Source: Armatimonadota bacterium (GTDB taxonomy: Bacteria > Armatimonadota > Fimbriimonadia > Fimbriimonadales > Fimbriimonadaceae). From it: a stretch of 64,000 bases of DNA. Position 1 is the first letter of the stretch, and the number at the start of each line of letters is the position of its first letter. Below are positions 46,040 through 46,704 of the stretch, in pieces. A program made the position numbers and the translations under genes. The notes beneath the pieces are model-generated. The model saw only the letters and a list, made by a program, of their open reading frames with translations, had not been told where the DNA came from and ran no database searches. The stretch spans positions 310,001 through 374,000 of the forward strand of contig JADFMN010000001.1 of the NCBI GenBank assembly GCA_022563855.1, written 5' to 3'.

Positions 46040-46101
46040 AGATGCCTAGAAACGCCCAATTTCAGGTGAACTCTTGCCGGTCTGGACCGTTTTGACGGTT
46101 G

Positions 46102-46704
46102 ATGACACTACGATGGACGATCCTCTTGGCCAGCCTGGCAGTTGGGCTGACAGCCGGGGCAAGCGAGCAGCGCCGGGCTGACGTTCGATTGAAGGAGGGC
46201 GATAAGGCTCCGAATTTCAAGTTGAACATCCTTCACTCTGAAAAGACGTTTGAGCTGAAGAGCAACTTCGGAGAGCGGCCCACTATTCTCATTTTCGGCA
46301 GCTACACGTGACCGCCTTTCCGCTCCCAGGTGGGAGCGCTCGAAAAGTGGTTCGACGAGTACAAGGACAGGGCAGACTTTCGGATAGTGTACATTCGGGA
46401 AGCCCATCCGAGCGACGGCCGGCGGGCTAGAGGGAACAACCGATCCGGCATCAACGTAAAATCGCCGACAACGCTCGATGAGAGAACTGAGATTGCCACG
46501 GTTTGCGCCACTGAGCTTAAGATCAGCATTCCGATCATCATCGATGGATTGGACGACAAGGTCGGGACGGAGTACGGCGGCTGGCCAGATCGAATCTATG
46601 TCATTGGCACAGACGGCAAGATCGTCTATCAGAGCGGCCCGGGACCACGCGGATTCAAGCCTCAGGAAGCGAAGAAGGCCCTGACAGAGTACTTGAAGAG
46701 CTAG
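46102..46704 (+). CDS. Iodothyronine deiodinase-like selenoprotein (TGA = selenocysteine at residue 70)
   Basis: 200 residues when TGA 46309-46311 is read as Sec. The N-terminus is a signal peptide (LRWTILLASLAVGLTAG). A thioredoxin-fold domain follows: EGDKAPNFKLNILHSEKTFE, then RPTILIFGSYT-U-PPFRSQ, DEYKDRADFRIVYIREAHPS and DGRRARGNNRSG, ending with YGGWPDRIYVIGTDGKIVYQ. The order FGS-x-T-U-PPF ... VYI-EAHPSDG matches vertebrate type 1-3 deiodinases and bacterial DI-like proteins. A 7-bp hairpin with AGGT loop follows the TGA by 9 bases (SECIS). If Sec is not inserted, the product would be a useless 69-residue fragment although the downstream half is well conserved, so read-through is strongly favoured. 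Without iodothyronines in bacteria, a general reductive dehalogenase or thiol/peroxide role is likely. Confidence 0.9.
46309..46338 (+). promoter_or_regulatory. Bacterial SECIS element at the in-frame TGA
   Basis: TGA (46309-46311) is followed by 9 bases and then CGCTCCC (46321-46327), loop AGGT (46328-46331), GGGAGCG (46332-46338): a perfect 7-bp, mostly G-C stem. The loop starts 16 bases after the TGA and has G at its second and third positions, as in the E. coli fdhF loop (AGGUCU). This agrees with the known rule that bacterial SECIS loops lie about 16-37 nt after UGA with G among the first two bases. Confidence 0.8.

Follow-up and report, generated by a model that had tools for sequence, protein, structure and literature searches.

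A compact bSECIS-type hairpin within the coding sequence of a deiodinase-like gene from Armatimonadota

The hairpin that follows the in-frame TGA of a deiodinase-like gene (Table 1) is very probably a bacterial SECIS that lies inside the coding sequence and directs selenocysteine (Sec) insertion at UGA 46309. The gene was found in a stretch of 64,000 nt of Armatimonadota DNA, here called the window. Mechanical ORF calling divides it at the TGA into an ORF at 46099-46311 and a GTG-started ORF at 46330-46704. The hairpin makes a well-supported selenoprotein of a gene that standard annotation would split in two. The kind of signal is known, and this new example of it is well supported; the gene family has been known in bacteria since 2005. 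In that year deiodinase-like selenoproteins with bSECIS elements were described from bacteria (PMC1088965), and they were counted again in 2008 (PMC2398784). The Sargasso Sea/GOS members share with the window gene the PF00837 domain and a Sec codon that is immediately followed by a bacterial SECIS.

Table 1. Positions of the gene, the predicted Sec codon and the hairpin elements in the window.
Feature	Position	Strand	Basis
Deiodinase-like selenoprotein gene (PF00837), TGA read through as Sec	46102..46704	+	translation with TGA=U; PF00837 profile; Dio3/Dio2 matches
In-frame TGA, predicted selenocysteine codon, context FGSYT-U-PPFR	46309..46311	+	translation; homologues; Dio2/Dio3 alignment
SECIS stem, 5' arm CGCUCCC	46321..46327	+	sequence, folding
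Apical loop AGGU, G at second position as putative SelB contact	46328..46331	+	sequence, folding; bSECIS model (PMC13188914)
SECIS stem, 3' arm GGGAGCG	46332..46338	+	sequence, folding, arm-swap tests
Possible lower helix (CCGC.UUUC with GAAA.GUGG) lengthening the hairpin towards the TGA	46312..46350	+	predicted by folding

With the TGA read as Sec, the product has 200 residues from ATG 46102 or 201 residues from TTG 46099, which is also a possible start. The PF00837 profile matched the window protein with an E value of 6.7e-34 and 117.7 bits (cut-off 27). The protein also aligned with Dio3 and Dio2 over their catalytic domains, and in this alignment the TGA, codon 70 counted from ATG 46102, fell on the catalytic Sec position, which the crystallized constructs occupy with Cys. 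Scoring above the curated cut-off and with Sec/Cys at the active site, the protein belongs to the deiodinase family PF00837. Its N-terminus resembles a signal sequence, as judged by eye, and the product is probably exported. The proton relay of Dio2 comprises Ser127, Thr129, Tyr157, Glu160, His162 and His182 (PMC11592359). The window protein conserves five of these, up to and including His162, but has Pro in place of His182, and this last site is occupied by His, Pro, Ala or Thr across the homologues. By its relay residues the protein would therefore not be classed as an iodothyronine deiodinase, and thyroid hormone as a substrate is not implied. It is a deiodinase-family protein of the thioredoxin fold with a predicted Sec at the catalytic position, where a redox role would be expected. 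A 2026 review gave the motif of the deiodinase-like family as UxxC (PMC13188914), whereas the window protein has U-P-P-F, as in the animal enzymes, and its paralogue L018 has U-P-Y-C.

The original prediction of a perfect 7-bp stem, CGCTCCC-AGGT-GGGAGCG, with its loop 16 nt past the TGA was confirmed in the sequence. The stem begins 9 nt after the TGA, and the codons of the hairpin specify R-S-Q-V-G-A. The bSECIS model allows a loop of 3-9 nt with a G in its first two positions, a stem of 4-16 bp, a spacing of 16-37 nt and an MFE of ≤ -7.5 (PMC13188914). The window hairpin falls within all of these limits (AGGU loop of 4 nt with G second and followed by another G, upper stem of 7 bp, 16 nt, -12.8 kcal/mol for the hairpin alone); its spacing is at the lower limit of the range, and it is otherwise typical. 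When positions 46312-46350 were folded alone, the hairpin together with the lower helix reached -19.8 kcal/mol (z -3.28), and 0 of 200 shuffled sequences folded as well. The same fold was the MFE structure of positions 46285-46350, but z was only -1.04 and not significant. The hairpin was thus recovered in both stretches, though with a z value that depended on the stretch, so that folding energy alone is no proof of it.

The likeness to the SECIS of E. coli fdhF that had been pointed out in the original prediction is limited. Both loops start with AGGU at nearly equal distances from the UGA (16 nt here and 17 nt in fdhF), and the shared G-G/U follows the general bSECIS rule. The fdhF loop, AGGUCU, is larger (6 nt), and its upper stem contains an unpaired U, while the stem at 46321-46338 is uninterrupted, with a 4-nt loop. 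The unpaired U in the upper stem is needed by E. coli SelB, and binding of the window hairpin by E. coli SelB can therefore not be assumed.

To the 1,952 TGAs of the window (both strands, all frames) we compared the exact element and looser versions of it. At offset 16, a 4-nt loop closed by seven uninterrupted Watson-Crick pairs followed this TGA only, which was also the only one to reach -12.8 kcal/mol at an offset of 16-17 nt. With the offset anywhere in 16-37 nt, 6 TGAs reached this value, and 107 were followed by a looser hairpin that satisfies the bSECIS model at -7.5 kcal/mol or below. An element of exactly this form is rare, but a loose bSECIS match by itself would be weak evidence.

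A homologue was detected at E 1e-8 in 25 of the 291 genomes of the phylum. A scan of contigs with the window protein as single query gave only four distant relatives, which were left unused. Twenty genomes, including this one, have a TGA at the same codon. SelA is present in all 19 others and SelB in 18 of them; the assembly that lacks SelB is 88% complete. In the five Cys-only genomes the codon is TGC or TGT, and neither SelA nor SelB was found in any of them. The hairpin lies at 16-17 nt in 12 of the 20 distinct Sec genes that were read; in seven others the best hairpin lies at 20-34 nt, and in the last one no hairpin fits the model. All six Cys homologues lack a hairpin at the 16-17 nt spacing. 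Sec homologues without the hairpin had been named as an observation that would speak against the element: this applies to 8 of the 20, which are distant relatives, and not to the 12 that keep it.

We tested the stem for selection beyond coding by two approaches. Synonymous recoding that preserved the peptide was significant (p < 0.05) for 11 of 19 distinct Sec genes and for none of the six Cys genes; combined by Fisher's method, the values were 6e-11 and 0.64, respectively, which is indicative only because the homologues are related. In the register-free arm-swap test, the 3' arms were exchanged between species with 5,000 permutations. For all 19 Sec homologues, which were not chosen by hairpin, the mean energy was -6.6 kcal/mol with the own arm and -1.9 kcal/mol with a swapped arm (p 0.0002, the permutation floor). 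In the subset of 12 genes chosen for carrying the hairpin at 16-17 nt, the means were -10.0 and -3.3 kcal/mol, again at the floor of p 0.0002. Swapping arms between species with nearly identical peptides thus cost about two thirds of the energy, which indicates that the stem arms co-evolve. Scanning 36 further offsets revealed none that resembled offset 16; at each of them at most 2 of the 12 sequences reached -6 kcal/mol. At offset 16 all 12 did so, a count that is partly due to the selection of the set, while the contrast between own and swapped arms is not. Pair counts in a fixed register did not reveal this (61.9% paired and 59.9% in shuffles), and a second covariation count was also weak, because the register of the stem slips by 1-2 nt between species with the loop staying in place; three registers occur among the homologues. 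The register-free swap is a simple test for selection on SECIS hairpins in coding sequences where covariation counting fails. The comparison of the stem among homologues, as proposed in the original prediction, revealed selection on the structure beyond coding.

The genome encodes SelA (513 bits), SelB (345 bits), a tRNA-Sec with the anticodon TCA in the gene (UCA in the RNA) and SelD, the gene for which itself carries an in-frame TGA; all four components are thus present. Nine other TGA genes were collected: seven by a search with one thioredoxin-fold family, each placing Sec in a plausible active site, one (L018) by a search with the window protein, and selD. In six of the nine, a hairpin that fits the model has its loop 16-18 nt past the TGA, compared with 68 of 6,009 background TGAs (1.1%), and the loops of these six include AGUU and CGGC. 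In the remaining three, the loop lies at 14 or 32-33 nt (selD) or at 20 nt (L066), or no hairpin fits the model (L059). L018 (G000:C2:204722-205069 and around) is a second deiodinase-like gene with the motif FGSFT-U-PYC and a partly kept EAHP motif; its hairpin has the loop GGC/CGGCG at 16-17 nt. The other eight (L051, L057, L058, L059, L064, L066, L067 and L068) comprise selD and peroxiredoxin-like, TlpA-like and other thioredoxin-fold genes. Together, the TGA genes of this genome constitute a broad thioredoxin-fold selenoproteome.

Alternatively, the hairpin could arise as a by-product where GC-rich codons encode the conserved peptide R-x-Q-V-G-A, with Sec inserted through another element or not at all. 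The codons CGN NNN CAG GTN GGN indeed provide several G and C bases for pairing, loose model hairpins are found after random TGAs, and the eight Sec homologues mentioned above do without a hairpin at this spacing. However, when the same peptide was recoded synonymously, only 0.5% of the draws matched the strength of the observed stem (p 0.005), in agreement with the earlier view that its perfection is unlikely to be due to codons alone. The energy lost on swapping arms between near-identical peptides, and the restriction of this pattern to one offset, also argue against a by-product, which we regard as very unlikely.

Even less probable, and about equally so, are two other explanations. The TGA would be an ordinary stop if the gene were decayed, if there were a sequencing error, or if the two ORFs were merely adjacent, and mechanical ORF calling does break the gene there. 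Against this, 19 further genomes share the TGA at this codon, which aligns with the catalytic Sec position of the deiodinases, and genomes without Sec machinery have TGC or TGT instead. A role of the hairpin mainly as transcription terminator or translation-pausing element, instead of a SECIS bound by SelB, could be proposed since GC stems are able to stall ribosomes or polymerase; the stem is not followed by a run of U, though, and the position of the hairpin is tied to the TGA in the homologues and in the other TGA genes of the genome. The hairpin had originally been taken as support for Sec insertion, and a SECIS is indeed favored by its agreement with the model, the synonymous test, the compensatory changes, the machinery and the same position of hairpins after other TGAs.

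By the established bacterial pathway, SelB with Sec-tRNA-Sec (anticodon UCA) would bind the loop A-G-G-U through its C-terminal domain. The short spacing would bring the tRNA to the ribosomal A site as UGA 46309 arrives there, and Sec would be inserted in place of termination. It is conceivable, though we put this forward tentatively, that the SelB of this lineage reads a compact, bulge-free hairpin by its shape and position (loop N-G-[G/U], 16-18 nt past the UGA), that the register is free to slip between species, that this form is common to several selenoprotein genes of one genome, and that a related family has the element shifted downstream by 4-5 nt.

The seven hairpins located further downstream are mostly weak. 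Two of them belong to L032 (34 nt) and L045 (25 nt), and the other five to one family, f13 (L036-L040). The f13 hairpins lie at 20-21 nt and are weak and not significant, and their arms swap freely (own -6.1 and swapped -5.6 kcal/mol). The genomes of L036-L040 have SelA and SelB, and the proteins keep the second proton-relay His, which is absent in the window protein.

Genome G123 harbors three tandem, diverged TGA deiodinase-like copies about 675 bp apart (L024, L047 and L049; G123:C134:3079-4942). The rows L047 and L049 duplicate the gene of L024 due to overlapping loci and were left out of the tests; one other copy was read separately. The second tandem copy (L047:1624) has kept the TGA, with no hairpin that fits the model. 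L048 (G210:C240:19014-19556) is deiodinase-like with an active-site Cys, and some 17 residues further downstream, outside the catalytic site, its frame contains a TGA; this TGA may be a sequencing error, a sign of decay or something else.
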